The position numbers and the translations under genes are program-made. Below, piece by piece: positions 236-56,684 of a stretch of 58,717 nucleotides of DNA. The stretch's first letter is position 1. Every line of letters begins with the position of its first letter. The notes beneath the pieces are model-generated. The model was not told the DNA's origin. It was given only the letters and a program-made list of their open reading frames with translations, and made no database searches. The DNA is from Calditerrivibrio nitroreducens DSM 19672 (GTDB taxonomy: Bacteria; Chrysiogenota; Deferribacteres; Deferribacterales; Calditerrivibrionaceae), in contig NC_014749.1 of the NCBI RefSeq assembly GCF_000183405.1, positions 1-58,717 of the forward strand. Direction: 5' to 3'.

Positions 236-272
236 GAAATTTTAACCTAAAAAAATCACCCGTAGTGACAAA

Positions 273-3566: not shown

Positions 3567-3688
3567 ATATAATTATCTCTTCACTCTCTGGAAAACTTAT
3601 TTCTTACTTTTCCTATAAACTTTCCTTTAAATACAACGTCACTCTAATCTTAGATTTTTAAAATAGTTCTAGTGTTTACCATGGCAAA

Positions 3689-5941: not shown

Positions 5942-5953
5942 GATTACTCCTCC

Positions 5954-7724: not shown

Positions 7725-7895
7725 CTGCCGTCACCCCATTTTTTGCACTCTAAAATAAGTTCAAAGTTCTACGTTCAAAGTTCAACGTTCTAACGTTCTA
7801 ACGTTCTAACTTTTCAACGTTTTATTCTGGAGGCTTTTACAAATATAACTTATTGAAAATTCAAGATCTAATAATAAAAATGGGGGAGATGATAG
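7725..7895 (-). mobile_element. Small TIR element (MITE-like), copy 1
   Basis: The element is bounded by CTGCCGTCACCCCATTTTTT on one side and AAAAATGGGGGAGATGATAG on the other, an imperfect inverted pair. Inside is the degenerate 7-8 bp minisatellite (units like TTCTAACG and TTCAACG, the complement of TTGAACG), then the conserved internal block CTTTTACAAATATAACTTAT next to TTGAAAATTCAAG. Against the copies at 33821 and 58415 the order of parts is the same. I see no convincing target duplication. It has no coding capacity. It lies just upstream of the dynamin operon. Confidence 0.7.
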
Positions 7896-10999: not shown

Positions 11000-11070
11000 T
11001 AAAATGTTAAAACGTTGGCACGTTAGAACGTTGAACGTAGAACGTAGAACATTGAACTTTGAACATTTTA
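11000..11070. repeat. Degenerate 7-8 bp minisatellite, left flank of DUF1703 copy 1
   Basis: Tandem units such as TTAGAACG, TTGAACG, TAGAACG, TAGAACA, TTGAACT and TTGAACA run head to tail. The preceding bases (AAAGAGATAAAGAATGGGGT) are shared with 17585 and 37265, so array, promoter and gene travel as one block. The rest of 10953-11136 has no gene. Confidence 0.75.
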
Positions 11071-11136: not shown

Positions 11137-12675
11137 ATGAAAAAACTGCCAATAGGGATACAGACTTTCAGCAAGATAAGAGAAGAAGGGTATATCTATA
11201 TTGATAAAACCGAAGAAGCTTTTGAACTGGTTAATAATTTTACATACGTTTTCCTCTCCCGCCCCCGCAGATTTGGTAAGTCATTATTTGTTGACACATT
11301 AAAAGAGTTATTTGAAGGGAATAAGAAGCTTTTTGAAGGATTATACATTTACGACAAATGGAATTGGGATGAGAAATACCCTGTTATCAAGATAAGCTGG
11401 GCAGGTGATCTTACTACTCTTGAAAGAGTAGAAGATAGGGCAATTGATATTTTTAAAACTAACCAGAGATTACTTGGGATTGAATGTGAAAACAACAAAA
11501 ACCCTTCTTCTTGTTTTAACGAGCTGATACAAAAAGCTTATGAAAAATATAATCAAAAAGTTGTCATTCTCATAGATGAATACGATAAGCCTATATTGGA
11601 TGTGATTGAGAATGTTGAGCAGGCAAAAATAAACAGAGGATTTTTAAGAAATCTATATTCAATCATAAAAGACAACGATGCTTATATTCGCTTTGCCTTT
11701 CTTACAGGAGTGAGTAAATTTTCAAAGGCATCGATATTCAGTGGCTTAAATATGCTTACCGATATATCGCTGAATCCAAAATATGGCAACATCTGTGGAT
11801 ATACCCAGAGGGATATTGAGACGAGCTTTAAAGATTATTTTGTCGATGTGGATATGGAAAAGGTTAAGAGGTGGTATAATGGGTATAATTTCTTAAAAGA
11901 TAATGTTTATAATCCTTTTGATATTCTACAATTTATCAGTAATGGTCTTGTTTTTGATAATTACTGGTTTGAAACCGGAACACCATCGTTTTTGATAAAG
12001 CTTCTAAAAGAGAGGAGATATTTTCTGCCAAATTTTTCAAATATCGTTGTGGATAAGAAACTTCTTTCCAGCTTTGACGTAGAGAATATAGATCTTGAAG
12101 TGATCCTATTTCAATCAGGTTATCTGACAATAGAGAAGGTAATTCAGACCCCCAGAAGTATAGGATACAAGCTTAAAATACCTAATCTTGAAGTCCAGAT
12201 ATCGTTAAATGATTATATACTTAGATACCTCTTTAACTATCGAGAATCTAATGATATTCAAAATCAGAGCTATGATGCATTTTACAATGGTGAACTTGAT
12301 GTGATAAGAGATAACCTTACGACCCTTTTTTCATCGATTCCCTACACCAATTATACAAATAACGAACTAAAGCTATACGAAGGTTTTTATGCCAGTGTTG
12401 TATATTCTTACCTTGCATCTCTTGGTGTGGATTTGATAGGTGAGGATGTGACAAATAAGGGTAGGATTGATTTAACGGTATTTGTGTCAGATAAGATATA
12501 CATTATGGAATTTAAGGTGGATGGTGCAAAAGGTGAGGCCTTATCCCAGATAAAGCAAAAGAACTACGCCCAGAAGTATATGGATAGAGGCAAAGATATT
12601 TACCTTGTGGGTATAGAATTTAGCTCAAGTGAGAGGAATATAGTAAATTTTGAGTGGGAGAAGTTGGAACGTTAG
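11137..12675 (+). CDS. AAA-ATPase-like / PD-(D/E)XK protein (DUF1703 type), copy 1
   Basis: This is a 512-residue protein of the AAA-ATPase-like plus PD-(D/E)XK (DUF1703) family, common in multicopy form in anaerobes. The N-terminal ATPase has a P-loop variant SRPRRFGKSL (41-50) and Walker B VVILIDEYDKP (about 143-153). The C-terminal nuclease-like domain has GRIDLTVFVSD...EFKV (about 442-461), with the Asp and ExK residues intact. The cellular role of the family is not established; its frequency in variable regions suggests genome conflict. Shine-Dalgarno CTGGAGC is upstream. The stop codon lies inside the downstream minisatellite. It is nearly identical to the copy at 37428 over most of its length. 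Confidence 0.9.
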   Translation: MKKLPIGIQTFSKIREEGYIYIDKTEEAFELVNNFTYVFLSRPRRFGKSLFVDTLKELFEGNKKLFEGLYIYDKWNWDEKYPVIKISWAGDLTTLERVEDRAIDIFKTNQRLLGIECENNKNPSSCFNELIQKAYEKYNQKVVILIDEYDKPILDVIENVEQAKINRGFLRNLYSIIKDNDAYIRFAFLTGVSKFSKASIFSGLNMLTDISLNPKYGNICGYTQRDIETSFKDYFVDVDMEKVKRWYNGYNFLKDNVYNPFDILQFISNGLVFDNYWFETGTPSFLIKLLKERRYFLPNFSNIVVDKKLLSSFDVENIDLEVILFQSGYLTIEKVIQTPRSIGYKLKIPNLEVQISLNDYILRYLFNYRESNDIQNQSYDAFYNGELDVIRDNLTTLFSSIPYTNYTNNELKLYEGFYASVVYSYLASLGVDLIGEDVTNKGRIDLTVFVSDKIYIMEFKVDGAKGEALSQIKQKNYAQKYMDRGKDIYLVGIEFSSSERNIVNFEWEKLER

Positions 12676-12809
12676 AACGTTGGAACGTTGAAACGTTAGA
12701 ACGTGAAACGTGAAATGTGAAACGTTGAAAAGCTGGAACGTTGGAACGTTGAACTTTGAAAGTAGAACTTCGAACTTATTTTAGGGTGCAAAAAATGGGG
12801 TGACGGAAG
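12666..12809. repeat. Minisatellite plus right terminal repeat after DUF1703 copy 1
   Basis: The array of AACGTT-type units starts inside the last codons of the gene (TTGGAACGTTAG, encoding LER and the stop). It runs to about 12776 and joins directly to TTTTAGGGTGCAAAAAATGG and GGTGACGGAAG, the right end of the TIR element family. No left end belongs to it except the distant one at 10714, so the gene may be a passenger between ends. Confidence 0.7.
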
Positions 12810-17300: not shown

Positions 17301-17602
17301 ATTCAGACTATTAGAGGCTGCTTCATACTTTGTCGATACTGCTTCAAAGCTTGTATAGATTTATATAAACACCGACCACATTCAAAGCTTGCATGCTTGA
17401 GAAATTCTCATTGCTTATGCAGAGATTCAAACCATTATAAAACAGCTATATCTACTATATTAAAAGGACATTATAGATTCATGCCCTTGCAATTAAAAGA
17501 CTGAATCTTAAAGCCGTAGTATGTTATTTATAGGATATTTGGCCTGGGTAAGATGAAAAGAAAGAAAAGTTTACTTGTAGACTAAAGGGATAAAGAATGG
17601 GG
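17301..17602. other. Intergenic, no gene seen
   Basis: I find no codable frame or RNA. A short motif like GCTGCTTCATACTTTGT occurs at 17318 and, in variant form, at 18985 and 35598, so a minor dispersed repeat is present. The last 30 bases (ACTTGTAGACTAAAGGGATA) begin the conserved left flank of the DUF1703 cassettes. Confidence 0.5.
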
Positions 17603-17707
17603 TTGAAATGTTAAAATGTTAAAACGTTGGCACGTTAGAACGTAGAACGTAGAACATTGAACTTTGAACATTTTATGATTTGACAATTTATCACATTAGA
17701 TTATAAT
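17603..17707. repeat. Minisatellite and promoter, left flank of DUF1703 copy 2
   Basis: Units such as TTAAAACG, TTGGCACG, TTAGAACG and TAGAACG run to 17672, followed by the conserved promoter TTGACA (17680-17685), N16, TATAAT (17702-17707). This is nearly identical to the flank of copies 1 and 4. Confidence 0.7.
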
Positions 17708-17741: not shown

Positions 17742-18872
17742 ATGAAAAAACTGCCAATAGGGATACAGACTTTCAGCAAGATAAGAGAAGAAGGGTATAT
17801 CTATATTGATAAAACCGAAGAAGCTTTTGAACTGGTTAATAATTTTACATACGTTTTCCTCTCCCGCCCCCGCAGGTTTGGTAAGTCATTATTTCTTGAC
17901 ACATTAAAAGAGTTATTTGAAGGGAACAAGAAGCTTTTTGAAGGATTATACATATACGACAAATGGAATTGGGATGAGAAATACCCTGTTATCAAGATAA
18001 GCTGGGCAGGTGATCTGCAGACGCTTGAAAGCGTAAAACGGGTAGCCCTTTATAAATTCAAATCAAACCAGGAAAATCTCGGAATAAGCTGTGATAATAC
18101 AACAGATCCTGGTAGCTATTTCAGTGATTTAATACATAAGGCTTATAAAAAGTATGGCAAAAAAGTGGTAATTCTCGTAGATGAATACGATAAGCCGATA
18201 CTGGATGTAATTGATAAGATCGATCAGGTAAAGATATATATGGAATTTTTAAAAGGTCTTTACTCAATCATAGAAGATAATGAGGTTTATATCCGCTTTG
18301 CTTTTCTGACAGGTGTAAGCAAATTCTCAAAGTCATGTATATTTAGTGACCCTGATAGACTTACAGACATATCGCTAAGTCCAAAATTTGGTAATATTTG
18401 TAGCTGTACCCAGAGGGAGATTGAGACGACCTTTAAAGACTATTTTGTCGATGTGGATATGGAAAAGGTAAAGAGATGGTATAATGGGTACAATTTCCTG
18501 AAAGATAATGTTTACAACCCTTCTGATATATTAAATTTTATTAAAAATGAATGTAAATTCGACAACTACTGGTTTGAGACAGGTACACCATCTTTTTTGA
18601 TAAAGCTTATAAAAGAGAGGAAATATTTTATACCAAATTTTGCAAATTTGATTGTAGATGACAAAGTACTTTTTAGCTCTGACATAGAGAATTTAGGTAT
18701 TGAAGCTATTTTATTTCAGTCAGGTTATTTGACAATTGAAAAGGCGATCCAGACCCCCAGAGGTATAGAATATAAGCTAAAGATACCTAATTTTGAAGTA
18801 GAGCTATCGTTAAACAATTATATACTTAGATATCTCTCTGGATTCGAAGACTCTGCGGCTAACACTATGTAA
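17742..18872 (+). pseudogene. DUF1703-type ATPase, copy 2, lacking the nuclease domain
   Basis: This is a 376-residue frame. The first 90 or so residues are nearly identical to the copy at 37428, including P-loop SRPRRFGKSL; beyond GDLQTLESV it diverges, as if recombined from another family member. Walker B VVILVDEYDKP is present. The frame stops after LSGFEDSAANTM, just where other copies continue for about 135 residues into the PD-(D/E)XK domain, and no downstream remnant of that domain is visible. The ATPase part is intact, so a truncated product could still be made from its perfect promoter; I treat it as a 3'-deleted gene. Confidence 0.75.
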
Positions 18873-21038: not shown

Positions 21039-22581
21039 ATGAAAAAACTGCCAATAGGGATACAGAATTTTAGGGAAATAATTGAAGAAAACTATATTTA
21101 TATTGATAAGACTGAAGAAGCCTATCAGCTTGTGTCCAACTATAAGTACGTTTTTCTTTCCCGCCCCCGTAGATTTGGTAAGTCATTATTTGTTGATACA
21201 TTAAAAGAGTTGTTTGAAGGGAATAAGAAGCTTTTTGAAGGATTATACATATACGACAAATGGAATTGGGATGAGAAATACCCGGTAATAAAAATCAGCT
21301 GGGATGGTAAAAATAGGAGCATCAAAGATCTCGAGGCAAACCTCAGGGAAACTTTACTGGAAAATCAAAAAAAGGACTAAATATTAAAATAGTGACGACG
21401 ATCTGGATCTGGTAATCTGCTTTAGAAGGCTCATTACAGAAGCGGCTGAAAAATACAATCAAAAGGTAGTAATACTGATTGATGAGTATGATAAGCCGAT
21501 ATTGGATGTGATAGACGATATAGAGCAGGCTAAGGAGCATAGGGAATATTTAAAAGGACTATATTCTGTATTAAAAGGTGTGGATGCCTACATTAGGTTT
21601 GCTTTTCTTACAGGTGTGAGTAAATTCTCAAAAGCATCTATATTCAGTGGTTTAAATATGCTTGAAGACATTTCATTAGTTGATACATTCGGCAATATCT
21701 GTGGCTATACCCAGAGGGATATTGAGACGAGCTTTAAAGACTATTTTGTGAATGTGGATATGGAAAGCGTAAAGAGATGGTATAATGGGTACAATTTCCT
21801 GAAAGATAATGTTTACAACCCTTTTGATATATTAAATTTTATTAGAAATAAATGTCAATTTAGAAACTATTGGTTTGAAACCGGTACACCATCTTTTTTG
21901 ATAAAGCTTATCAAATCAAGAAACTACTTTTTGCCAAAGCTTACAAATTTGATTGTAGATGATAAACTTCTTTCCAGCTTTGACGTAGAGAATATAGATC
22001 TTGAAGTGATCCTATTTCAGTCAGGTTATCTGACAATAGAGAAGGTAATTCAGAGCCCCAGAAGTATAGGATACAAGCTTAAAATACCTAATCTTGAAGT
22101 CCAGATATCGTTAAATGATTATATACTTAGATACCTCTTTAACCATCGGGAAGCTAATTATATTCAAAATCAGAGCTATGATGCATTTTACAATGGTGAA
22201 CTTGATGTGATAAGAGATAATCTTACGACCCTTTTTTCATCGATTCCATACACCAATTATACAAACAACGAACTAAAGCTATACGAAGGTTTTTACGCCA
22301 GTGTAGTGTATTCTTATCTTGCATCTCTTGGGTTTGATTTGATAGGTGAGGATGTGACAAATAAGGGTAGGATTGATTTAACGGTATTTGTGTCAGATAA
22401 GATATACATTATGGAATTTAAGGTGGATGGTGCAAAAGGTGAGGCCTTATCCCAGATAAAACATAAAAACTACGCCCAGAAGTATCTGGATAGGGGTAAA
22501 GATATTTACCTTGTGGGAATAGAATTTAGCTCGAGTGAGAAGAATATAGTAAATTTTGAATGGGAGAAGTTGGAACGTTAG
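21039..22581 (+). pseudogene. DUF1703-type ATPase/nuclease, copy 3, frameshifted
   Basis: The first frame (21039-21380, P-loop SRPRRFGKSL) ends at ENQKKD and a stop. The second open segment runs in another frame to 22581 and encodes Walker B VVILIDEYDKP and the intact PD-(D/E)XK motif (GRIDLTVFVSD...EFKV). Restoring one A in the A7 run at 21367-21373 and one A in the A4 run at 21385-21388 would give a continuous protein (QKKGLNIKNSDDDLDL...). Both lesions are single-base losses in A runs only about 15 bases apart. That suggests either slippage or sequencing error rather than long decay, since the rest is intact. Confidence 0.8.
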
Positions 22582-22682
22582 AACGTTAAAACGTTGAACG
22601 TTGAACGTTGAACTTTGAACGTAGAACCTTGAACGTAGAATTTTGAACATATTTTAGCGTGCAAAAAATGGGGTGAGGGTAG
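22572..22682. repeat. Minisatellite plus right terminal repeat after DUF1703 copy 3
   Basis: The array again starts within the final LER-stop codons, continues to about 22650 (TTGAACGTAGAACCTTGAAC), and joins TTTTAGCGTGCAAAAAATGG and GGTGAGGGTAG, a slightly mutated right end of the TIR family. Confidence 0.7.
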
Positions 22683-25258: not shown

Positions 25259-26236
25259 TTATACTACATTGTCATCTTCTTTTAATTTTAATTCTATCTC
25301 ATTAATATATCTTTTGAGCCTTTCGATTTCATTTCTTACCTTATCTTTTTCCCTTATGATGATATTCTCATCCTCCAGCGTTCTTTTTAACTTTTCAAAA
25401 TTATTCACAGCTGTTTTGATATTCTGTAAAATACGGATACGCTTTTTTACTTCTGTTTTTTGATTTGTATCTTTTTTCCCACTAACTAATCTCTTGATCT
25501 TCTCTGCATTTATTTTGCCCTCTAAATATTTATCAAGGCATTCTTCAATAAATTCTTTATCATTTTTCACTGATATAAATAACAAGAAGATAGTTATAGG
25601 GATATTCGCTTCGTGCATATACTTAATATGATCAATATTAAAGCTCAATGGGTATAACAAATAGATAATACTCATTAACGACATGCCAAAATACTTTTCA
25701 ATATCTTCTTTGATTGTGGCCACTTTAAGGTTTAAAGAACTCTTACCATCATTAATTTTTATCAATTCTGACAATATATTATCTATACTTTTATCTATGC
25801 CCACCTTTTCGGCTAAGAAATCCTGCATTAGCTCAAAAATGGCAGTTGATTTTTCGTATAACGTCAAATCTTCTCTTCTTACATTTTCTTCAAATTGCAT
25901 TATCTTCTTTTCATTTTCACTTCTCGAACCCAATACGTGAACCGTAATTTTATTAATACCTAACTTTTTGCAAGCTAAATATCGTCTTTCACCTGCAATA
26001 ATTTTAAACATTTGTGTTTTATCGTCTAACTCCACAAGGATAGGATTGATCAAGCCATACTTCTTTATAGACTCAGCTAATTCTTCAATACCCTTTTCAT
26101 CAAATTTTTTTCTTATCTGTTCATCGGCAACTATTTTATCTATAGGCACTTTAACCATATTTGTTTGATACAGATCACCACTTAAAATATTTGTGGCTCT
26201 TGATTTATTAAACATATTATCTTTTTTCATCGCCAT
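25259..26236 (-). CDS. parB: ParB-family partition protein
   Basis: This is a 325-residue protein. The N-terminal nuclease/CTPase-like domain carries IVADEQIRKKFDEKGIEELA, GLINPILVEL, IAGERRYLACKKLG (the GERR box) and EENVRREDLTLYEKS. A central helix-turn-helix region follows and then a charged coiled-coil tail. ParB binds parS and spreads using CTP, and with ParA it segregates the plasmid. The start overlaps the end of parA by 20 bases, so it is co-translated. I could not find a consensus parS palindrome nearby. The tail is lysine-rich and not well conserved. Confidence 0.9.
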   Translation of the reverse strand: MAMKKDNMFNKSRATNILSGDLYQTNMVKVPIDKIVADEQIRKKFDEKGIEELAESIKKYGLINPILVELDDKTQMFKIIAGERRYLACKKLGINKITVHVLGSRSENEKKIMQFEENVRREDLTLYEKSTAIFELMQDFLAEKVGIDKSIDNILSELIKINDGKSSLNLKVATIKEDIEKYFGMSLMSIIYLLYPLSFNIDHIKYMHEANIPITIFLLFISVKNDKEFIEECLDKYLEGKINAEKIKRLVSGKKDTNQKTEVKKRIRILQNIKTAVNNFEKLKRTLEDENIIIREKDKVRNEIERLKRYINEIELKLKEDDNVV

Positions 26237-27122
26237 CCCACCTTATCCATTTTACTCTTGAATCAATCTCATTAAGAAGTTTCTTGGCATTTTCAATAGA
26301 TTTTTGCCCCCTTACCTGCTTATAGTCAGTTAAAATATATTTCCTTTCCAACAAAGCCTGTTTATAATCAACATAATCATTTAATACGGTATCTATAATA
26401 TAATCCCCATAGCTCTCTTTTACAAATGCAACAAAATCATTATCATAACTGTTTTGTTTTACTTTATTTATCACTACACCTACAAAATTTAAGTTTTTAT
26501 TGATTAAAGAGGAAGATTTAAATGTGGCTATCATTTTATTTAACCCAGTTAATCCAAATTCACCCACATCAGTTACAGTAAGCAAATTTTCTACAGACAT
26601 TAATGCAAATTGTGATGGTAAAAAGTCAACTCCAGGCGGAGTATCTATAATAATAACATCGTAATATTTATACGCTATTTCCAACAAAACCTTGAATACA
26701 AGATGGGATAATGGAATTGTTTTAGACATTTTATTGCTTATTTCACCAAACTCAATATCGCTGGCTATTACAGCAAAATTATAATCAATCTGTAATTCAT
26801 CATTCTCGTCATTATATTTAAACGGAATTAAACTATCCAAAAACTTCTTTTCCAACTCCATCCTTGTTTCGGAATATTTATCTACAACTGTATTTATGTT
26901 ATTAATTATATAATCAAGTAGCGTATATAAGTTTTTATGACGCATATCAGCAAGTAATGTTTGTTCAGCAAAATATTGACAGGTATTTACCTGTTGGTAA
27001 TCAAGATCAATCATTAAAACTTTTTTATTTTTAATCTGCCTATAGTACTCGCCAAGCATAAGCGCTAATGTTGTTTTTCCTGTCCCACCTTTTACATTTC
27101 CTATATAAATACTTGTTTTCAT
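26217..27122 (-). CDS. parA: ParA-family partition ATPase
   Basis: This is a 301-residue deviant-Walker ATPase with KGGTGKTT at 11-18, Asp in VLMIDLDYQQ, and IIIDTPPGVDF as Walker B. It lacks the N-terminal HTH of large plasmid ParA proteins, so autoregulation through an operator is less likely. It lies between the dnaA-like gene (9-base gap) and parB (overlap), forming one minus-strand replication/partition operon. It binds DNA non-specifically as an ATP dimer and is displaced by ParB. Confidence 0.92.
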   Translation of the reverse strand: MKTSIYIGNVKGGTGKTTLALMLGEYYRQIKNKKVLMIDLDYQQVNTCQYFAEQTLLADMRHKNLYTLLDYIINNINTVVDKYSETRMELEKKFLDSLIPFKYNDENDELQIDYNFAVIASDIEFGEISNKMSKTIPLSHLVFKVLLEIAYKYYDVIIIDTPPGVDFLPSQFALMSVENLLTVTDVGEFGLTGLNKMIATFKSSSLINKNLNFVGVVINKVKQNSYDNDFVAFVKESYGDYIIDTVLNDYVDYKQALLERKYILTDYKQVRGQKSIENAKKLLNEIDSRVKWIRWDGDEKR

Positions 27123-27131
27123 AGTTTACCC

Positions 27132-28589
27132 CTACACTCTTATTATTATATCCAATACTTCCTTGTGTTTTTCATTATTTTTTTCAATTTCTTCTTCAAA
27201 CTCTCCATAACCACTATGGGCACTGACTTTACTTATTTTAAATACCTCGGATATGGCTTGAAATGAAAAATCGTGGTATTTATTTAAAACGTAAATAATT
27301 GCATTTCTTATTATCTTTAACTCACTACCTTTTTTAAGACGTCCTTGAATTTCAGATAACCTTATGCTAAATTTTTCACACATTCTTTCAACTAAATAAT
27401 TTATCCTATGATTTTGATTGTTTATTTTTAACTTTTCTTTTAGCCCCATATTATCAGCTAATTCCATGATTGCAGAGTTGATATTGTTATGTAAAGTATA
27501 TTTTTCTAATAACTCGTTCATAATGCCATTTATATACCTAAAATCACCTCTGTGTGAATCAATAATTATTGCTAAAATATCTTGTGAGGTTTTATTTAAT
27601 TCTTCAAAATCGATTTGTAATGAATATTTTAACACTCTTTTGGCAAACAATAATTTCAGATTAAATGATGGCTCAGAAATATAGATCATATTCGACTTTA
27701 ATCTGGAAACAAATGGACTTCCTAAAACAACATCACCATTTTTATTCAATTCAAAATAACTGCCTGTGGCATTATCCGCAAGCTCTTTATTCAGTTTGAT
27801 ATAATCAGGTTGAACTGGAGTAGTAATTACAGTCACTTTCTCTTTTACCACCCTTAAATTGATCAAATCGTAAATCAACTGAATATAAACAGGGCGATTG
27901 GTATCACAAATAAAGGATAAGTCATCTATAGCGATAATATCTGCTTTGTTTATTTCCCTTAAAAATATTTCTAATTGCCGCATTGATGAGTATTTTTTAA
28001 TTAACTCAACCCAGTAACTTTTGACAAAATAATATGCTGACTTCCCCTCATACTTTTCACTAAAAGCATTTAACATGGCTGAAACAAGGTGAGTTTTTCC
28101 CACACCTGTTGGCCCATAGAGAGTTATAATTTTTCCACCATAGTTGCCTTCAGCTACTGATTTCATAGTCATATAAGCACTATGATTTGTAGAATCTACT
28201 AAGTAATTATCAAAACTGTATTTTGTGTTGAATGAGTCTGCTTGTGATATAATTATATTCTTTGGTAAAGTGTATTCTTTTTCTATAAAACCATCTTCGG
28301 TTTTAATTGTATTTATTATCTTTTCTGCTTGAAAAATAATATCCTCTATGTCATAAGCAATAATAACATCTTTGAGTAAATCCATCATTTTTTCTTTTTC
28401 ATTCTTGAGTTTTTCTATAATAAACGATGAGGCAGTAGCTATAATTTTTTTATTTTCTAATGTAAACTTGGTTGACAATATTCCTATAATAAAAAGAATA
28501 CCATATTTTTCGTTGTAGGTTTCTCCATCTTTTTTAATTTCATTTTGTATGTACTCGATGTACTCTGAAAATTCCATTTTATCACCCAT
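27132..28589 (-). CDS. DnaA-like replication initiator
   Basis: This is a 485-residue protein whose middle and end follow DnaA. YSFDNYLVDSTNHSAYM leads into Walker A LYGPTGVGKTH (about 158-168) and Walker B IIAIDDLSF (about 221), with a C-terminal helical DNA-binding domain (ISEVFKISKVSAHSGYGEF). The DnaA signature that contacts DnaA boxes (normally near DHTTV) is replaced here by KVSAHSGY, so binding specificity should differ. The first 120 residues do not resemble chromosomal DnaA domain I. An alternative ATG 12 bases in (28577) has a better ribosome binding site (GGGTG). It leads the parAB operon and faces the iterons. I infer that it is the plasmid Rep. Confidence 0.85.
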   Translation of the reverse strand: MGDKMEFSEYIEYIQNEIKKDGETYNEKYGILFIIGILSTKFTLENKKIIATASSFIIEKLKNEKEKMMDLLKDVIIAYDIEDIIFQAEKIINTIKTEDGFIEKEYTLPKNIIISQADSFNTKYSFDNYLVDSTNHSAYMTMKSVAEGNYGGKIITLYGPTGVGKTHLVSAMLNAFSEKYEGKSAYYFVKSYWVELIKKYSSMRQLEIFLREINKADIIAIDDLSFICDTNRPVYIQLIYDLINLRVVKEKVTVITTPVQPDYIKLNKELADNATGSYFELNKNGDVVLGSPFVSRLKSNMIYISEPSFNLKLLFAKRVLKYSLQIDFEELNKTSQDILAIIIDSHRGDFRYINGIMNELLEKYTLHNNINSAIMELADNMGLKEKLKINNQNHRINYLVERMCEKFSIRLSEIQGRLKKGSELKIIRNAIIYVLNKYHDFSFQAISEVFKISKVSAHSGYGEFEEEIEKNNEKHKEVLDIIIRV

Positions 28590-28615
28590 TCTTTAGTATA
28601 ATAGTAACATAGTTT

Positions 28616-28644
28616 TATTTAAACAACTATTATTATTATGTCAA
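28616..28644 (-). promoter_or_regulatory. Promoter of the dnaA-like/parAB operon
   Basis: On the minus strand TTGACA (28644-28639), 17 bases and TAAATA (28621-28616) lie about 27 bases before the start codon. It is between the iterons and the gene, so initiator binding at the iterons could also control its own transcription. Confidence 0.55.
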
Positions 28645-28699
28645 CAGAAAATTGTTAGTTTATTTTATGCGTAGTATATAACTTATTTACAAATAAGAA

Positions 28700-28860
28700 A
28701 ATTTATATTTTATTGGCGTTAGTTTTAGTGTTAGTTTTGTGTTAGTTTTAATGTTAGTTTTTGTTAAGTTTGTTAGTTTACTTCTAAAATAATGAAAAAA
28801 TGGCCTAAAACTAACGAAAACCTAACGATAAGCTAACGGTAAAACTAACGATTTGTTAAT
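28700..28860. other. Probable replication origin with iterons
   Basis: GTTAGTTTT occurs at 28718, 28730, 28741 and 28753, with GTTAGTTTA at 28772, spaced 11-12 bases in the first four. A pause of AT-rich DNA (28781-28800) is followed by the same motif inverted: AAAACTAAC at 28807 and 28841, with variants AAACCTAAC and AAGCTAACG between them. Helical-period direct repeats flanking AT-rich DNA beside an initiator gene are the standard look of an iteron origin. No gene lies in 28645-28980. Confidence 0.7.
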
Positions 28861-28980
28861 AGAAAAAGATTATTCTCATTTTCAACGTCCCTAAAAACCG
28901 AAGATATCGTCAGCTTGATTATTTTAACAAGTTCTTATCAAGAAGTCTCTATCTTCTATAAGATGGAGATGAATTGATGG

Positions 28981-29439
28981 TTGACAAATAATCAGTTTAG
29001 AATTATATTATTTCTTATAAATAAAGTAAAACTTGACACAAATAAGCATTCAGTTTATCTGCTGTATTATCATCTTGTTTTAGTGGTAAAGTATAGAAAA
29101 AAGGTCATAGATGATAGGATATCTAACAGACTAAAAGAAATATTTGAATACATACAACCAAATTACAACATAACACTAATTGAGTGGAGCCACGATGAAG
29201 ATCATGTGCATATCCTATTCAAAGCTACCCCTACATCTTCATTAGCTAAATTTATAAATGCATACAAGAGTGCATCTTCAAGATTGATTAAAAAAGAGTT
29301 TCCTAAAATTAAAGAAAAACTATGGGATAAATACTTCTGGTCAAGAAGTTATTGTCTATTAACAAGTGGTGGAGCTCCAGTTGATGTTATTAGGAAATAT
29401 ATAGAAAATCAAGGAAAGAAAAATGCTAAAAGCGTATAG
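28981..29439 (+). CDS. tnpA: IS200/IS605 transposase TnpA, copy 2
   Basis: The family-typical protein begins near KLDTNKHSVYLLYYHLVLVV (codons from about 29029) and ends QGKKNAKSV. The HUH motif is in DEDHVHILF, and LLTSGGAPVDVIRKYIENQG is the usual C-terminal part. The real start codon is unclear. The TTG at 28981 begins TTGACA, which with N17 and TATATT looks like a promoter instead, and no ATG lies between there and the conserved part. Either a rare start is used or the ATG has been lost. The end overlaps tnpB by 17 bases. Confidence 0.8.
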   Translation: MTNNQFRIILFLINKVKLDTNKHSVYLLYYHLVLVVKYRKKVIDDRISNRLKEIFEYIQPNYNITLIEWSHDEDHVHILFKATPTSSLAKFINAYKSASSRLIKKEFPKIKEKLWDKYFWSRSYCLLTSGGAPVDVIRKYIENQGKKNAKSV

Positions 29440-30631
29440 ATACAGAATTTATCCTGATAAAGAGCAAGAAGAATTTTTCACTAAAACTTTTGGTGCTTGT
29501 AGATTTGTTTGGAATAAGATGCTTGAAGAGAAGTTAAAATTCCTTGATAGAAAAGAAAAAATACCAATAATAACACCAGCCAACTATAAGAAAGAATTTC
29601 TATTTCTAAAAGAAGTAGATAGTTTAGCATTAGCTAATATCCAATTACAAAATGAAAAAGCTTTTAGAGATTATTTTAGAAATCCTAAACATTTTAAACT
29701 ACCAAAATTTAAAAATAAAAAAGGTAAGCAATCATACACCACAAACAATGTAAAAGTTGATTTTGAAAAAGGGTTATTATTTCTACCAAAAATCAAATCT
29801 GGTATTAAGGCTTGTTTCCATAGAACCTTTACAGGAAAAATCAAATCTGCGACTATAACAAAAACTAAAACAGGAAAATACTTTGTTAGCATTCTTGTAG
29901 AGATAGAACAACAATGTAATATCCAACCACCGAAGAATGAAGTCTGCGGAATAGATTTAGGCTTAAAAGATTTTGCAATTATTACAAATGAGAAAAAAGA
30001 AACGATCAAAATACCAAGTCCAAAACATTTAGTAAAAGCAGAGAAAAGATTAAAAAGACTGCAAAATCAGCTATCAAAAAAGCAAAAAGGTTCTAAAAAT
30101 AGAGAAAAACACAGAGTAAGATTGTCTAAGTTACATGAACATGTTTCTGCTGCAAGAAACGATTTCTTACATAAATTATCCTTTGCTATTATTCGTGATA
30201 ACCAAACGATAGTAGTAGAGGACTTAAACGTTAAGGGTCTATCTCAAAGTAATCTATCTAAAAGCGTTCTTGATAGTTCTTGGGGTAAGTTCTTAAACTA
30301 TCTAAAGTACAAAGCAGAGTGGTATGGTAGAACGATTATAGTTGTAGATAAGTTCTATCCGTCATCTAAAACTTGTAGTGTCTGTAACTTTATCAATCAT
30401 AGACTAACGCTTAAAAATAGGCACTGGACTTGTGAAGAGTGTGGAACTTATCACGATAGAGACATAAACGCATCAGTAAATCTGATGTTTTATGGAATGA
30501 AGAAAGTAGGGATGGAACAGCCCGAATTTACGCCTGTTGACTGTGCTCTGGCGGCGGAACTGAAGCAATTCAGGTCTACGAGTCATCACAGGATGAAACA
30601 GGAAGCCACCACTTCTATAAGTGGTTGGTAG
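29423..30631 (+). CDS. tnpB: TnpB, RNA-guided nuclease, copy 2
   Basis: This is a 402-residue TnpB with the full RuvC set: Asp in CGIDLGLKDF, Glu in VVEDLNVKG and Asp in YHDRDINASVN. The zinc finger CSVCNF...CEECGTYH is intact. The N-terminal DNA-recognition part is FGACRFVWNKMLEEKL. It is only moderately similar to the 8586 copy, and its right-end hairpin also differs, so each should work with its own guide RNA. The 3' codons overlap the presumed guide-RNA region. Confidence 0.92.
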   Translation: MLKAYRYRIYPDKEQEEFFTKTFGACRFVWNKMLEEKLKFLDRKEKIPIITPANYKKEFLFLKEVDSLALANIQLQNEKAFRDYFRNPKHFKLPKFKNKKGKQSYTTNNVKVDFEKGLLFLPKIKSGIKACFHRTFTGKIKSATITKTKTGKYFVSILVEIEQQCNIQPPKNEVCGIDLGLKDFAIITNEKKETIKIPSPKHLVKAEKRLKRLQNQLSKKQKGSKNREKHRVRLSKLHEHVSAARNDFLHKLSFAIIRDNQTIVVEDLNVKGLSQSNLSKSVLDSSWGKFLNYLKYKAEWYGRTIIVVDKFYPSSKTCSVCNFINHRLTLKNRHWTCEECGTYHDRDINASVNLMFYGMKKVGMEQPEFTPVDCALAAELKQFRSTSHHRMKQEATTSISGW

Positions 30632-30689: not shown

Positions 30690-30752
30690 AAAATGGGCTA
30701 TTTGGGCTATTTAGGCTATTTAGGCTATTTAGGTTATTTAGGCTATTTATCC
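30690..30752. repeat. Nine-base tandem repeat GGCTATTTA
   Basis: About six head-to-tail units of GGCTATTTA (one GGGCTATTT and one GGTTATTTA variant) occur just beyond the IS200/IS605 right end. No gene spans it. It could be a slippage-prone tract. Nothing else is evident until the repeat module at 30841. Confidence 0.65.
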
Positions 30753-33041: not shown

Positions 33042-33397
33042 GTTTCATCTGAACCATGTGGGATTTAAAGGTTTCTTCCACTTTCTTTACTTCTTCTTGT
33101 ATTTCAGTTTCATCTGAACCATGTGGGATTTAAAGTTAAATATTCAACACGTATGTCTTCAATAATGTTCGCGTTTCATCTGAACCATGTGGGATTTAAA
33201 TCAGGGTACGTAAGGGCAGTTTTGGACGTGGGGTTGAGTTTCATCTGAACCATGTGGGATTTAAATTATGTCACCGGTGATCATCCAACTATGGGAGAAG
33301 CAAGTTTCATCTGAACCATGTGGGATTTAAAGTCGAAGAAAATGGATTTTAGAGAGGTTGGCAGAGAGTTTCATCTGAACCATGTGGGATTTTTAAA
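33042..33397. CRISPR. CRISPR array, 6 repeats and 5 spacers, no cas genes
   Basis: The repeat GTTTCATCTGAACCATGTGG + GATTTAAA (28 bases) starts at 33042, 33107, 33173, 33238, 33304 and 33368. Spacers are 36-38 bases. The complement of the repeat ends GATGAAAC, the usual 3' handle form, so transcription is probably on the minus strand. The last copy on the right has two extra T (33391-33397), and a degenerate copy is normally leader-distal, which argues the other way. Orientation is therefore open. No cas gene is in the window, so chromosomal Cas proteins would be needed. Confidence 0.92.
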
Positions 33398-33820: not shown

Positions 33821-34013
33821 CTGCCGTCACCCCATTTTTTGCACCTCTAAAATAAAAAATAAGTTCAAGGTTCTATGTTCAATGTTCTATGATCAACGTT
33901 CCAACGTTTTAACGTTTCAACGTTCTAACTTTTCAACGTTTTATTCTGAGAGCTGTTACGAGCATATCTTATTGAAAATACAGTGTTAAATCATAAAAAT
34001 GGGGTGATGCCAA
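33821..34013 (-). mobile_element. Small TIR element, copy 3
   Basis: Ends are CTGCCGTCACCCCATTTTTT (left) and AAAAATGGGGTGATGCCA (right). The core holds the minisatellite (TTCTATG, TTCAACG, TTTAACG-like units, 33864-33945) and the conserved block near CTTATTGAAAATAC. Orientation and order match the copy at 7725. It lies 14 bases before the promoter of the restriction-modification genes. Confidence 0.72.
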
Positions 34014-37281: not shown

Positions 37282-37393
37282 TTGAAATGTTAAAACGTTG
37301 AAAAGTTAGCACGTTAGAACGTTGAACGTAGAACGTAGAACATTGAACCTTGAACATTTTATGATTTGACAATTTATCACATTAGATTATAAT
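37282..37393. repeat. Minisatellite and promoter, left flank of DUF1703 copy 4
   Basis: Units TTAAAACG, TTGAAAAG, TTAGCACG, TTAGAACG, TTGAACG and TAGAACG run to about 37356, then TTGACA (37366-37371), N16, TATAAT (37388-37393). Nearly identical to the flank at 11000-11102. Confidence 0.72.
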
Positions 37394-37427: not shown

Positions 37428-38966
37428 ATGAAAAAACTGCCAATAGGGATACAGACTTTCAGCAAGATAAGAGAAGAAGGGTATATCTATATTGATAAAA
37501 CCGAAGAAGCTTTTGAACTGGTTAATAATTTTACATACGTTTTCCTCTCCCGCCCCCGCAGGTTTGGTAAGTCATTATTTCTTGACACATTAAAAGAGTT
37601 ATTTGAAGGGAACAAGAAGCTTTTTGAAGGATTATACATATACGACAAATGGAATTGGGATGAAAAATACCCTGTTATCAAGATAAGCTGGGCAGGTGAT
37701 CTTACTACTCTTGAAAGAGTAGAAGATAGGGCAATTGATATTTTTAAAACTAACCAGAGATTACTTGGGATTGAATGTGAAAACAACAAAAACCCTTCTT
37801 CTTGTTTTAACGAGCTGATACAAAAAGCTTATGAAAAATATAATCAAAAAGTTGTCATTCTCATAGATGAATACGATAAGCCTATATTGGATGTGATTGA
37901 GAATGTTGAGCAGGCAAAAATAAACAGAGGATTTTTAAGAAATCTATATTCAATCATAAAAGACAACGATGCTTATATTCGCTTTGCCTTTCTTACAGGA
38001 GTGAGTAAATTTTCAAAGGCATCGATATTCAGTGGCTTAAATATGCTTACCGATATATCGCTGAATCCAAAATATGGCAACATCTGTGGATATACCCAGA
38101 GGGATATTGAGACGAGCTTTAAAGATTATTTTGTCGATGTGGATATGGAAAAGGTTAAGAGGTGGTATAATGGGTATAATTTCTTAAAAGATAATGTTTA
38201 TAATCCTTTTGATATTCTACAATTTATCAGTAATGGTCTTGTTTTTGATAATTACTGGTTTGAAACCGGAACACCATCGTTTTTGATAAAGCTTCTAAAA
38301 GAGAGGAGATATTTTCTGCCAAATTTTTCAAATATCGTTGTGGATAAGAAACTTCTTTCCAGCTTTGACGTAGAGAATATAGATCTTGAAGTGATCCTAT
38401 TTCAATCAGGTTATCTGACAATAGAGAAGGTAATTCAGACCCCCAGAAGTATAGGATACAAGCTTAAAATACCTAATCTTGAAGTCCAGATATCGTTAAA
38501 TGATTATATACTTAGATACCTCTTTAACTATCGAGAATCTAATGATATTCAAAATCAGAGCTATGATGCATTTTACAATGGTGATCTTGATGTGATAAGA
38601 GATAATCTTACGACCCTTTTTTCATCTATTCCATACACCAATTATACAAAAAACGAACTAAAGCTATACGAAGGTTTTTACGCCAGCGTTGTATATTCTT
38701 ACCTTGCATCTCTTGGGTTTGATTTGATAGGTGAGGATGTGACCAATAAGGGTAGGATTGATTTAACGGTATTTGTGTCAGATAAGGTATACATTATTGA
38801 ATTTAAGGTGGATGGTGTAAAAGGTGAGGCCTTATTCCAGATAAAGCATAAAAACTACGCCCAGAAGTATCTGGATAGAGGTAAAGATATTTACCTTGTG
38901 GGTATAGAATTTAGCTCAAGTGAGAGGAATATAGTAAATTTTGAATGGGAGAAGTTAGAACGTTAG
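37428..38966 (+). CDS. AAA-ATPase-like / PD-(D/E)XK protein (DUF1703 type), copy 4
   Basis: This is a 512-residue, apparently intact gene. P-loop SRPRRFGKSL (41-50), Walker B VVILIDEYDKP and nuclease motif GRIDLTVFVSD...EFKV are present. It is almost identical to copy 1 up to about residue 400. The C-terminal 110 residues instead share variants with copy 3 (LGFDLIGED, IKHKNYAQKYL), and the first 90 match copy 2 (SLFLDTL). That is a mosaic pattern expected of gene conversion among the copies. The stop again falls within the following minisatellite. Confidence 0.9.
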   Translation: MKKLPIGIQTFSKIREEGYIYIDKTEEAFELVNNFTYVFLSRPRRFGKSLFLDTLKELFEGNKKLFEGLYIYDKWNWDEKYPVIKISWAGDLTTLERVEDRAIDIFKTNQRLLGIECENNKNPSSCFNELIQKAYEKYNQKVVILIDEYDKPILDVIENVEQAKINRGFLRNLYSIIKDNDAYIRFAFLTGVSKFSKASIFSGLNMLTDISLNPKYGNICGYTQRDIETSFKDYFVDVDMEKVKRWYNGYNFLKDNVYNPFDILQFISNGLVFDNYWFETGTPSFLIKLLKERRYFLPNFSNIVVDKKLLSSFDVENIDLEVILFQSGYLTIEKVIQTPRSIGYKLKIPNLEVQISLNDYILRYLFNYRESNDIQNQSYDAFYNGDLDVIRDNLTTLFSSIPYTNYTKNELKLYEGFYASVVYSYLASLGFDLIGEDVTNKGRIDLTVFVSDKVYIIEFKVDGVKGEALFQIKHKNYAQKYLDRGKDIYLVGIEFSSSERNIVNFEWEKLER

Positions 38967-39048
38967 AACGTTTAAACGTTGAAACGTTAGAACGTTAAAA
39001 CGTGTGAACGTTAGAACATTGAACATTGAACATTGAACTTTGAACGTT
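38958..39048. repeat. Minisatellite between DUF1703 copies 4 and 5
   Basis: TTAGAACG, TTTAAACG, TTGAAACG, TTAGAACG and TTGAACA-type units start at the stop codon of copy 4 and end just before the -10-like TATAAT of copy 5 (about 39055). There is no TTGACA here, unlike the other copies. Confidence 0.7.
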
Positions 39049-39094: not shown

Positions 39095-40642
39095 ATGAAG
39101 AAGCTACCAATAGGTATATCAACTCTACAATCTATAAGAGAAGATAACTGCTACTATGTAGATAAAACCCCTTTCGTTAAAAAATTAGTTGATAACGGCA
39201 AATACTATTTCTTAAGCAGACCCAGAAGGTTTGGGAAATCTTTGCTTGTAGATACTATAAAACAGGCTTTTTTAGGAAATAGGGAGCTATTTAAAGGATT
39301 ATATTTAGAAAATAACTGGGATTGGGAGAAAAAGTATCCCGTTATACATATAGATTTTGGTGGTGGAGTAGTTCAAGATGCACAGGACCTTAAAGAGTGG
39401 ATAATAAAACAGTTAAAACGTCATATGATAACCTACAACGTATCAGTAGAAGAACAAAACAATGCAAGATTTATTTTTACTGACCTTATAATTAGTCTGA
39501 AAGAGATTTACAAAAACCCTGTCGTAGTGCTGGTGGACGAGTATGATAAACCGATCCTTGACAATATAGATGATACAGAAAAAGCCATCGAGATAAGGGA
39601 AGTTTTAAAAGACTTTTACAGCGTTTTAAAAGCTTCCGACCAGTACTTAAAACTTGTATTCTTAACAGGAGTGTCAAGATTTTCAAAGGTCTCTATATTC
39701 AGCGGTTTAAATCAACTTCAAGATATTACCCTATCCCCTGCCTTTGCAACAATCTGTGGATATACCCAGTCAGAACTTGAGACCGTATTTTCAGACAGGT
39801 TGGAAGGAGTAGAGTTAGAAAAGCTAAGATATTGGTATAACGGCTACAGTTGGCTTGGAGATAAAGTTTACAATCCATTTGATGTTTTGTTATTTCTAAG
39901 TGAGAAAATTTTCAGACCCTACTGGTTTGAGACGGGAACACCTACATTTTTGATGGAAATTATCTTAAACAATAAAGTATTTTTACCAAAACTTGAAGAA
40001 ATAAAAGCAAGCGATGAAATACTTGCCAACCTTGATGTAGACTTTTTAAAAATTGAAAATTTACTATTTCAATCAGGCTATTTAACGATAAAGGAAACAA
40101 AAAAATTAGGTTTAAAGACAATTTATATTTTGACATATCCAAACTTTGAAGTAAAAATGAGTTTCAACAACTTTTTCCTGTCAGACATACTTCCAGTAGC
40201 ATCAGACAAAGAAGAAGTTCAAAACAGTATAGTAGAAGCTATAGAGGAAAACAGTTTAGAAAACCTAAAAACAGCGTTATACAGTTTCTTTGCAAGCATA
40301 CCAAACGACTGGTACAGGAAAAATGATTTAGACAGCTATGAGGGATTTTACGCTTCGGTAGTGTATGCACTTTTTACAGGAAGTGGATTAAATACAAGAT
40401 CGGAAGATACGACAAATTTAGGAAAAATAGATTTGACGGTCTTATATCAGGATAGAGCCTATATCATAGAATTTAAAGTAGTAGAGAAAGACAGTGAAGG
40501 CAAGGCTTTAGGTCAGATAAAAGAGAAGAGGTATTATGAAAAATATACAGACAGTTGCCGTGAGATAAACCTGATAGGTATAGAGTTTAGTAAGGAAAAA
40601 AGGAATGTAGTTTATTTTGAATATGAAACGTTAGAACGTTAG
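39095..40642 (+). CDS. AAA-ATPase-like / PD-(D/E)XK protein (DUF1703 type), divergent copy 5
   Basis: This 515-residue protein has the same domain plan (SRPRRFGKSL at 41-50, VVLVDEYDKPIL, GKIDLTVLYQD...EFKV) but is only about half identical to the other four copies, so it is a distinct family member rather than a duplicate. Shine-Dalgarno CTGGAG lies 8 bases before the ATG. Even so it ends in the same way, TLER with the stop inside the minisatellite, which shows that the flanking array is associated with the family rather than with one copy. Confidence 0.88.
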   Translation: MKKLPIGISTLQSIREDNCYYVDKTPFVKKLVDNGKYYFLSRPRRFGKSLLVDTIKQAFLGNRELFKGLYLENNWDWEKKYPVIHIDFGGGVVQDAQDLKEWIIKQLKRHMITYNVSVEEQNNARFIFTDLIISLKEIYKNPVVVLVDEYDKPILDNIDDTEKAIEIREVLKDFYSVLKASDQYLKLVFLTGVSRFSKVSIFSGLNQLQDITLSPAFATICGYTQSELETVFSDRLEGVELEKLRYWYNGYSWLGDKVYNPFDVLLFLSEKIFRPYWFETGTPTFLMEIILNNKVFLPKLEEIKASDEILANLDVDFLKIENLLFQSGYLTIKETKKLGLKTIYILTYPNFEVKMSFNNFFLSDILPVASDKEEVQNSIVEAIEENSLENLKTALYSFFASIPNDWYRKNDLDSYEGFYASVVYALFTGSGLNTRSEDTTNLGKIDLTVLYQDRAYIIEFKVVEKDSEGKALGQIKEKRYYEKYTDSCREINLIGIEFSKEKRNVVYFEYETLER

Positions 40643-40734
40643 AACGTTAGAACGTTGGAACGTTGGAACGTTAGAAAGTTAGAACGTTGAACTTTGAACA
40701 TATTTTAGGGGTGCAAAAAATGGGGTGACGGCAG
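40630..40734. repeat. Minisatellite plus right terminal repeat after DUF1703 copy 5
   Basis: TTAGAACG/TTGGAACG units run to about 40702 and join TTTTAGGGGTGCAAAAAATG and GGGTGACGGCAG. The next bases TGACACAATTAAGTT are again an IS256 right end, the same junction as at 10917-10943, so the two places share ancestry. Confidence 0.75.
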
Positions 40735-42785: not shown

Positions 42786-44120
42786 ATGGTTAAAAAAGCA
42801 GTTTTAATAGCATCTGATAAAAGTGGCTCCGGTAAGAGTCTTTTCACAATTTTTTTGTCAAAATATTTTACTTTAAAGCAAAAATCTGTATTACCTTTCA
42901 AGTGTGGCCCTGATTATATTGATACACTCCACTTAAAAAATGCTACTGGAAATAATGCATATAATTTAGACACTGTATTGATAAATAAGAAAAAATTAAG
43001 ATATAATTTTTTATCAAAACTTAATAGCTATGATATGGCAGTAATTGAAGGTGTCATGGGCTTTTATGATGGAATAAACTATAAAACTTTCGCTGGTAGT
43101 ACCTACGAAGTGGCAAAGATGCTCAATATTCCTGTATTATTCATCTTAGATACAAGTTCTACATCTTTTACAATTGCTGCAAGGATAAAAGGTTTGGTAA
43201 GTTTAGGTGAAGATATTAATGTGGCCGGTGTTGTTTTGAATAATGTAGGTTCTGAAAAACATGAAAAAATGCTAATAAACGCTATAGAGTATCACACTGA
43301 TTTAAAAGTTTTTGGTGCTATTCCAAAACTGAAAGATTTTGTTTTACCTTCAAGACATTTAGGTATTTATACAGCTTTTGAAGTAAAAGATAATTTTTAT
43401 GATGATATTGTTAATACTTTCTCAAATTATGTTGATGCAGGAAAAATTTATGATAATACAGACTATATCATTGATGAAATAACTAAAGATAAGAAGTCAA
43501 TAACTAAAGATAAAAAAGCTTATATTGCCTTTGATGAAGCATTTAATTTTTATTATCATGATAATATCGATTATCTTGAAGAGAATGGATTTCAAGTTAT
43601 CAATTTCTCCCCTTTAAAAGGTGAATTACCTGAAAAGCCTGACTTTATATATTTTGGTGGGGGATATCCTGAGCTTTATGCTGAGCAACTATCAAAAAAT
43701 AATAATCTGAAAAACTACATAAAAGAAACATCTAAAAAGGGCTTGCCAATTTTTGCAGAGTGCGGGGGGATGATGTTTTTATCGAATGGGATAAAAGTAA
43801 AGAATAAATTTTTTGAAATGTGTGGAGTATTTGATGTAAATGTTGAAATGACTGAGAAAAGGCAAGCCTTAGGTTATGTAAATGTTACATCATTAAAATC
43901 TACTGGTTTTTTTGAAAAGGATGAAGAATTCATCGGTCATGAATTTCATTATTCCAAAATAAAAGAGTGCAATGAAAATTATGTATTTAAAATCAAAAAA
44001 GTAACTGACAATAGTATTAACTATGATGGCTTTGTAAATAATAACACTATTGCAAGTTACACCCATTTTCACTTTTTAAGTGACAACTGCATAATAAAAA
44101 ATATAATAAAAGGAGTGTAA
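42786..44120 (+). CDS. cbiA: Cobyrinic acid a,c-diamide synthase
   Basis: This 444-residue CbiA amidates the a and c carboxylates of cobyrinate using ATP and glutamine. The N-terminal P-loop domain has SDKSGSGKSLFT and CGPDYIDTLH; the C-terminal glutamine amidotransferase has FGGGYPELYAEQL and the nucleophile region FAECGGMMFLS. A stretch around residue 235-245 is short and lysine-rich (TKDKKSITKDKK), a repeat of 7 residues. It is the first gene after the riboswitch. Confidence 0.93.
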   Translation: MVKKAVLIASDKSGSGKSLFTIFLSKYFTLKQKSVLPFKCGPDYIDTLHLKNATGNNAYNLDTVLINKKKLRYNFLSKLNSYDMAVIEGVMGFYDGINYKTFAGSTYEVAKMLNIPVLFILDTSSTSFTIAARIKGLVSLGEDINVAGVVLNNVGSEKHEKMLINAIEYHTDLKVFGAIPKLKDFVLPSRHLGIYTAFEVKDNFYDDIVNTFSNYVDAGKIYDNTDYIIDEITKDKKSITKDKKAYIAFDEAFNFYYHDNIDYLEENGFQVINFSPLKGELPEKPDFIYFGGGYPELYAEQLSKNNNLKNYIKETSKKGLPIFAECGGMMFLSNGIKVKNKFFEMCGVFDVNVEMTEKRQALGYVNVTSLKSTGFFEKDEEFIGHEFHYSKIKECNENYVFKIKKVTDNSINYDGFVNNNTIASYTHFHFLSDNCIIKNIIKGV

Positions 44121-44121
44121 G

Positions 44122-45111
44122 ATGAAAAAAATTATCATTTTTATTTTTGCAGCGTTGTTCTTATCGAAAGGAGTTAGTATGGCTCAAATGGAAAAAAAGG
44201 AAACAGAAAAAAACAAGACAGAAAAAAATGCAATTGTAATTGCAAGCTTTGGCACGACTTACCCTTCGGGACTAAAATCTATTATCAATATTATCAATAT
44301 GGTTAAAAATGAATTTCCTGATACCGAAGTTAGAGTAACTTTTACTTCAAATATTATAAGAGAAATATGGCAAAAAAGAAATAAGCATCCTGAAGAGTGG
44401 ATAAAAAAAGGTGTGCCAAAAGAGATTTTAAATGTAAAAGGGATTGTGGCTACATTGGGGGAGTTATCCGATGAAGGATACAAAAATATCGTTATCCAAT
44501 CAACGCATATCTACCATGGTGAAGAGTTTTCTGACCTTTTAGAATATGCAAGAGCTCTAAATTCCATTCAGACAATTAAAAAAAGATGGAAGCCATTTCA
44601 CAAAATTACAGTATCTCGCCCAGCACTTGGAACTTATGGTGATAAAATAAATTACCATGAAGATATAAAAAAGGCAGTAAAAGCATTAAAAAATGATGTG
44701 GAATTGGCAAGAAAACATAATGCTGCGCTTGTCTATATGGGGCATGGAAATGAATTTTATTCCACAGGTATATATTCTGAGACAGAAAAAGAGTTTAATA
44801 TTCAATATCCTGATGTAAAAACATTTATAGGGGTGGTAGAAGGTTATCCCGGTCTTGATGATTTAATGGAAAAATTAAAAGAACAAAAAGTTAAAAAAGT
44901 CATTTTAAAACCATTTATGGTTGTAGCTGGAGATCATGCGATAAATGATATGGCGGGTGATGAACCTGATTCCTGGAAAAATGTTTTAAATAAAGAAGGG
45001 ATAGAAGTTATCCCTGTAATTGAAGGGCTTGGTTCAAATGATGATTTTGCAAGGATTTTTTTAGAGCATTTAAAAGACGCTATCAATGATGGTGAAATTA
45101 TTCTTAAATGA
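44122..45111 (+). CDS. cbiK: Cobalt chelatase CbiK, periplasmic type
   Basis: This 329-residue protein has a signal peptide (KKIIIFIFAALFLSKGVSMA) followed by the CbiK fold: IVIASFGTTYPSG, the metal-site His regions STHIYHGEE and VAGDHAINDMAGDE, and MGHGNEFYSTG. CbiK inserts cobalt into sirohydrochlorin. Secreted versions are known from sulfate reducers (a periplasmic form that also binds haem). A periplasmic chelatase within a cytoplasmic corrin operon is odd, because the other enzymes act inside the cell; a role in metal or tetrapyrrole uptake with the adjacent BtuCDF is possible. The ribosome binding site GGAGTG overlaps the end of cbiA. Confidence 0.88.
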   Translation: MKKIIIFIFAALFLSKGVSMAQMEKKETEKNKTEKNAIVIASFGTTYPSGLKSIINIINMVKNEFPDTEVRVTFTSNIIREIWQKRNKHPEEWIKKGVPKEILNVKGIVATLGELSDEGYKNIVIQSTHIYHGEEFSDLLEYARALNSIQTIKKRWKPFHKITVSRPALGTYGDKINYHEDIKKAVKALKNDVELARKHNAALVYMGHGNEFYSTGIYSETEKEFNIQYPDVKTFIGVVEGYPGLDDLMEKLKEQKVKKVILKPFMVVAGDHAINDMAGDEPDSWKNVLNKEGIEVIPVIEGLGSNDDFARIFLEHLKDAINDGEIILK

Positions 45112-56637: not shown

Positions 56638-56684
56638 AAGTAGTATAGTTAAATATTCAAAGTTATACGATGAGGATTTTGAAC

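Follow-up and report, generated by a model that had tools for sequence, protein, structure and literature searches.

Can a relative of the chromosomal initiator DnaA act as the initiator of a plasmid after its usual DNA-reading residues have been replaced? This question is raised by a locus on the plasmid of Calditerrivibrio nitroreducens, a hot-spring bacterium that has an ordinary dnaA of its own on the chromosome. The window analysed here is the complete plasmid of 58,717 bp, contig C1 of a two-contig genome, and is named pCALNI01 (accession CP002348). The module studied consists of a dnaA-like gene, parA and parB, in this order and all in the same direction, preceded by an array of short repeats. 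The genome of 2,216,552 bp is made up of a chromosome of 2,157,835 bp and a plasmid of 58,717 bp, 31% GC (PMC3072091).

The preliminary description placed a replicon at 27132-28860. The repeats (28654-28849) lie within this extent, but the module does not end there and continues into parA and parB (25259-27122). Other parts of the plasmid carry three dynamin-family GTPase genes side by side on the minus strand (1818-7654) and a long cluster for cobalamin (B12) biosynthesis and uptake (42786-58194; CbiA, CbiK, FecCD-type transport, CbiC, CbiJ, CbiD, CbiG and tetrapyrrole methylases). A CRISPR array at 33042-33395 has six 28-nt repeats (GTTTCATCTGAACCATGTGGGATTTAAA) and five spacers of 35-37 nt, and no cas gene was recognised on the plasmid. 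Since an array of the GTTTCATCTGAACCATGTGGGATTTAAA repeat is also present on the chromosome (C2:1990498-1990852), the plasmid array could be usable by a chromosomal system. No Rfam match was found in the 22-34 kb region.

Table 1 Positions of the features discussed on the C. nitroreducens plasmid.
Feature	Position	Strand	Details
dnaA-like gene	27132-28589	-	485 aa; ORF list, Pfam, alignment, hhalign, AlphaFold model
N-terminal part	residues 1-118		Without DnaA match
AAA+ domain III	residues ~119-384		Sensor 1-box VII loop enlarged
Domain IV	residues ~390-470		KVSAHSGY replaces DHTTV
parA	26217-27122	-	301 aa; module gene 2
parB	25259-26236	-	325 aa; module gene 3
Palindrome ACAGGTA-TT-TACCTGT	26979-26994		Within parA; weak parS (centromere) candidate, inference only
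AT-rich stretch	28590-28712		123 bp, 16.3% GC, between array and gene; core ranks within the top 0.6% of 100-bp plasmid stretches by AT content
Outlying single iteron	28654-28662	+	GTTAGTTTA; within AT-rich stretch
Left iteron array	28718-28780	+	GTTAGTTTT at 28718, 28730, 28741, 28753; near copies at 28763, 28772; spacing 12, 11, 12, 10, 9
Right iteron array	28807-28849	-	Faces the left one; GTTAGTTTT at 28841, 28807; near copies at 28829, 28818; spacing 11-12
IS200/IS605 genes	28981-30631	+	tnpA 28981-29439, tnpB 29423-30631; inserted next to right end of iteron region; outside module
AACGTTG-type arrays	7757-7821, 11011-11064, 12659-12758, 17602-17672, 22573-22648, 33863-33943, 37289-37355, 38950-39048, 40627-40692, 58486-58592

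A DnaA-type protein with a changed domain IV

The protein encoded at 27132-28589, for which a second ATG at 28577 provides an alternative start, matches the Pfam profile Bac_DnaA (PF00308) with 53.9 bits (cut-off 23). Walker A (GPTGVGKTH), Walker B (DD) and the arginine of box VII (SR) are kept, in agreement with the earlier claim that the AAA+ core of DnaA is retained. The score with Bac_DnaA_C (PF08299) is 18.4 bits, under the cut-off of 31.5, and that with the DnaA equivalog TIGR00362 is 100.1 bits versus the 343.9 required. When domains III and IV of this protein and its plasmid-borne relative described below were compared with a profile of 30 chromosomal DnaAs, hhalign gave a probability of 99.8 (E 4e-30), and domain IV alone still proved homologous (probability 92.8%). 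The AlphaFold model has a mean pLDDT of 62.8, with values of ~80 for domain IV and for some of the ATPase core, and the top solved structures matching it are those of DnaA (8btg, 8bv3, 1l8q and 3r8f; Z 20-21), with residues 114-485 covered. For the N-terminal domain, described earlier as unlike DnaA, no resemblance to DnaA was detected: its 118 residues have no match to Pfam DnaA_N, an hhalign probability of 0.3 against DnaA, and a pLDDT below 50 in the model.

The basic loop and the DHTT signature of DnaA domain IV are the elements that read the DnaA box. At the signature position, [DN]H[ST]x is found in 28 of the 30 chromosomal DnaAs, and KVSAHSGY aligns there in the C. nitroreducens protein, which upholds the claim of a replaced DNA-contact motif; the signature is absent from both plasmid proteins. 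Both likewise lack the preceding basic-loop motif, which the search pattern detected in 22 of the 30 chromosomal DnaAs. The loop between sensor 1 and box VII comprises 33 and 50 residues in the two plasmid proteins, compared with 10-11 in the 30 DnaAs. As read from its sequence, the product is a strongly diverged DnaA paralogue that has lost the usual DNA-reading residues.

Matches of the ATPase part to DnaC-like loaders in PHROG and to IstB profiles would also fit a helicase-loader relative of the DnaC, DnaI or IstB type that is not an initiator. However, the best score is that of the DnaA profile (TIGR00362, 100 bits, versus 28-49 for the DnaI/IstB models), and the ATPase is followed by a DnaA-type domain IV, which the loaders do not have. 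We therefore consider a loader extremely unlikely.

Repeats beside the gene and other candidate replication determinants

The boxes upstream of the dnaA-like gene form two facing sets with steps of 9-12 bp and, including an outlying copy, span 28654-28849. Six of the eight exact GTTAGTTTT copies on the plasmid are located in this region, against an expectation of 0.01. The spaced pair GTTAGTTTTNNNGTTAGTTTT, with up to two mismatches, is unique to it in the 2.2-Mb genome. In dinucleotide shuffles of the array region itself, the commonest 8-mer reached 8 copies in 5 of 2000; the test is strict, since the composition of the repeat is itself carried over into the shuffles. No DnaA box with at most one mismatch was found at 28400-29000, nor any DnaA-box cluster on the plasmid. 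Repeats at 11-12 bp spacing with an inverted set, in place of DnaA boxes, were thus correctly recognised in the preliminary description. The AT-rich stretch at 28590-28712 could act as the unwinding element and also contain the operon promoter. A reading of the TTA run at ~28628-28640 as a DnaA-trio was rejected, since, judged by eye, it is not oriented towards the boxes in the way that this reading requires.

Just past the IS200/IS605 genes, on the side away from the iterons, GGCTATTTA is repeated six times in tandem (30696-30749). This array may be a fragment of the origin region that was separated by the insertion.

Elsewhere on the plasmid, we found at least 10 arrays of AACGTTG/AACGTTAG-type repeats with a spacing of 7-8 bp, some of which contain GTTAG. 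Many of them flank genes of an AAA-ATPase-like/PD-(D/E)XK family (11137-12675, 17742-18872, 37428-38966 and 39095-40642), and arrays and genes together look like a repeated unit that may be mobile. With so many short-repeat arrays present, the occurrence of one more cannot by itself prove an origin. The array upstream of the dnaA-like gene could belong to these general families and stand beside the gene by chance, in which case the DnaA-like protein might be an initiator acting elsewhere. It differs from them, however, in having no AACGTT, a spacing of 11-12 rather than 7-8 bp, two facing sets and most of the exact GTTAGTTTT copies, and an array occupies the same place beside the homologous gene described below. 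A chance position is very unlikely in our judgement.

No second Rep gene was recognised in the scanned plasmid ORFs of at least 100 aa, which covered all but a handful lying antisense within other genes, and profiles of Rep_3 (PF01051, PF21205) and RepA_N gave no match above cut-off. Within this scope, the earlier statement that no other Rep is evident held. Since gene direction explains the strand skew of the C. nitroreducens plasmid, the skew gives no origin location and lends no support to an origin at 28.7 kb. A canonical parS was not found on the plasmid.

The related module of pDF308

Relatives were sought in genome contigs, IMG/VR, phages, plasmids and 51 genomes of the phylum. Among 72,556 plasmid records, a match with more than 80% query coverage was found only in pDF308, the megaplasmid of Deferribacter desulfuricans (WP_013009043, DnaA/Hda family, 27.7% identity), and no further true relative came from any of the collections searched. 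A second, plasmid-borne DnaA-like protein is present in 2 of the 51 phylum genomes, C. nitroreducens and D. desulfuricans, and a ParA match at E 1e-8 was also confined to these two. The dnaA-like-parA-parB order is the same on pDF308, with pairwise identities of ~28%, 25% and 29%. Two candidate relatives were rejected, L034 as a chromosomal DnaA and L040 as unrelated. Three 'plasmid' dnaA matches that were inspected (Clostridioides, Sphingomonas and Monoglobus) look like mislabelled pieces of chromosomes, where dnaA lies by dnaN, recF, rpmH, rpsT and others. A full-length DnaA-type protein with GRGHATV at the signature, encoded on IMG/VR contig IMGVR_UViG_3300014656_000003 (L046:1740-3104), may be a virus-borne DnaA.

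In the tree, the two plasmid proteins form one clade (100/100), separate from the 30 chromosomal DnaAs. Their branches are very long (4.0 and 4.2 changes per site), and mutual attraction is possible. Despite the long branches, the clade is independently backed, because the enlarged sensor 1-box VII loop and the gene order are common to both. The preliminary description had proposed a search for homologues on other plasmids, with the absence of iterons next to them as a finding against it; the pDF308 gene has an array of its own in the same place. Directly upstream of it, 26 TTGCAT boxes lie within ~850 bp, a density that this box reaches nowhere else on the 308-kb plasmid. GTTAGTTTT is absent upstream of the pDF308 gene and TTGCAT upstream of the C. 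nitroreducens gene. Since the array occupies the same place in both plasmids and each lacks the other's box, the box has changed along with the protein. Both modules have a full AAA+ domain with domain IV, whereas they differ in protein sequence, in the box, in a Rep_3-type gene in the intergenic region of pDF308 and in its skew origin elsewhere.

This Rep_3-type gene (222 aa, Rep3_C domain; L033:2804-3472) lies across the same intergenic region from the pDF308 dnaA-like gene, and two exact DnaA boxes are near it. The third-position skew of pDF308, with gene direction allowed for, places the origin at 0-2 kb, ~74 kb from the module, and the terminus opposite; the residual is 479 for this origin, compared with 710 when none is assumed and 700 when the origin is set at 234.6 kb. 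Since the skew origin is at 0-2 kb, the DnaA-like module is probably not the long-term main origin of pDF308. It could represent an additional replicon, such as a plasmid fusion would leave, or serve another purpose. A second Rep gene or origin shown to drive replication had been named beforehand as counter-evidence: no other Rep was recognised in the scanned ORFs of the C. nitroreducens plasmid, but pDF308 comes close to this situation. Close to the 0-2 kb region (L085, L086), pDF308 encodes a topoisomerase, a DNA polymerase of very large size and two large proteins without matches (955 and 542 aa). Judged by its predicted genes, the megaplasmid carries several replication modules together. 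The perfect palindrome ACTTCCACAGTGGAAGT occurs twice on pDF308, inside parB and after it (L033:7790-7806 and 8345-8361), together with one canonical chromosomal parS, TGTTTCACGTGAAACA (L033:2751-2766), and these are likely centromere sites.

The coexistence of the pDF308 module with a Rep_3-type gene and its distance of 74 kb from the skew origin would agree with the DnaA-like protein being a DNA-binding regulator or a partner of ParAB. The repeats would then be an operator or centromere, consistent with their position directly upstream of an operon containing parA and parB, and replication would depend on an unrecognised Rep or on host DnaA. On the other hand, the scanned ORFs of the C. nitroreducens plasmid contain no other recognised Rep, the plasmid has no DnaA-box cluster, and pDF308 has separate centromere-like palindromes in and after parB. 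A full DnaA AAA+ domain with domain IV has no obvious use in a partition regulator. Overall, we regard the regulatory role as rather unlikely.

A proposed DnaA-derived replicon and its known counterparts

What the sequence itself establishes is the gene with its domains and array, the order of the module genes, and the existence of a homologous module whose array differs. We favor the interpretation that the locus is a plasmid replication and partition module whose initiator is the DnaA-like protein, with domain IV and boxes having diverged together (probability about 0.62). We hold the estimate to this value because of the Rep_3-type gene and the distant skew origin on pDF308 and the uninformative skew of the C. 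nitroreducens plasmid. The DnaA-like protein most likely starts plasmid replication independently of host DnaA. It would bind the GTTAGTTTT boxes via the changed domain IV, assemble with ATP through the DnaA-type AAA+ domain and open the adjoining AT-rich stretch (28590-28712), where the host helicase would be loaded as with DnaA at oriC. Since the boxes lie directly upstream of the dnaA-like-parA-parB operon, their binding probably also represses it, setting the copy number, and ParA and ParB would segregate the plasmid copies.

Whether the two modules define a replicon class of Deferribacterota plasmids is, in our estimate, an evenly balanced matter. In such a class, a complete AAA+ DnaA paralogue, with recognition element and box array both swapped, would open the origin by the DnaA mechanism, separately from host DnaA, and its two members would use unrelated boxes (GTTAGTTTT and TTGCAT). 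We found no paper in the open-access literature that discusses this pair, and the pDF308 protein is, as far as we found, annotated only. If the interpretation is true, the pair constitutes a natural experiment in DnaA specificity, in which the same AAA+ opening machine is combined with two new box-reading domains, and provides independent initiators for testing the DnaA-box recognition code. It would also allow us to probe how far the opening mechanism of DnaA depends on the usual boxes, on domain I and on control by the host. A likely replicon type could thereby be assigned to plasmids of Deferribacterota, for which none is described as far as we searched.

The preliminary description regarded the locus as a replicon type based on a repurposed DnaA. 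The diverged DnaA, its own repeats and the lack of a recognised rival Rep support this in part, but the general idea was already known from Rhodobacterales and Rickettsia. Compared with chromosomal DnaA, the plasmid protein shares the AAA+ core, the fold of domain IV, the ATPase motifs and box clusters beside an AT-rich stretch, whereas it has no detected domain I, DHTT or basic loop, has an extra loop and other boxes, and scores 100 rather than 343.9 bits. Rep_3 iteron plasmids similarly place the initiator gene by an AT-rich stretch and reiterated binding sites, but their initiator is unrelated, and the C. nitroreducens repeats are 9-mers, which are short and occur in both orientations. In Rickettsia, shuttle vectors function with plasmid regions that carry a dnaA-like gene and parA (PMC3244465, PMC9004397); among the 72,556 plasmid records, no Rickettsia record matched the C. 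nitroreducens protein. The DnaA-like plasmid type of Rhodobacterales is treated as an accepted functional replicon type in the literature (PMC9025767, PMC3832669 and others, citing Petersen et al. 2011), and it resembles the present module in a plasmid replicase named after DnaA and adjoining parAB. The replicase of Phaeobacter inhibens pPGA1_262 (L039, 227 aa), a type present in 289 plasmid records, consists of DnaA_N (domain I) and a helix-turn-helix, with no AAA+ domain. It thus represents the opposite half of DnaA and a different family, while the C. nitroreducens protein has the AAA+ domain and no DnaA_N match. A plasmid replicon derived from DnaA is therefore not a new idea, and what differs from the Rhodobacterales type tested, by these domain comparisons, is that the present protein keeps the full AAA+ domain and has a box array of its own.
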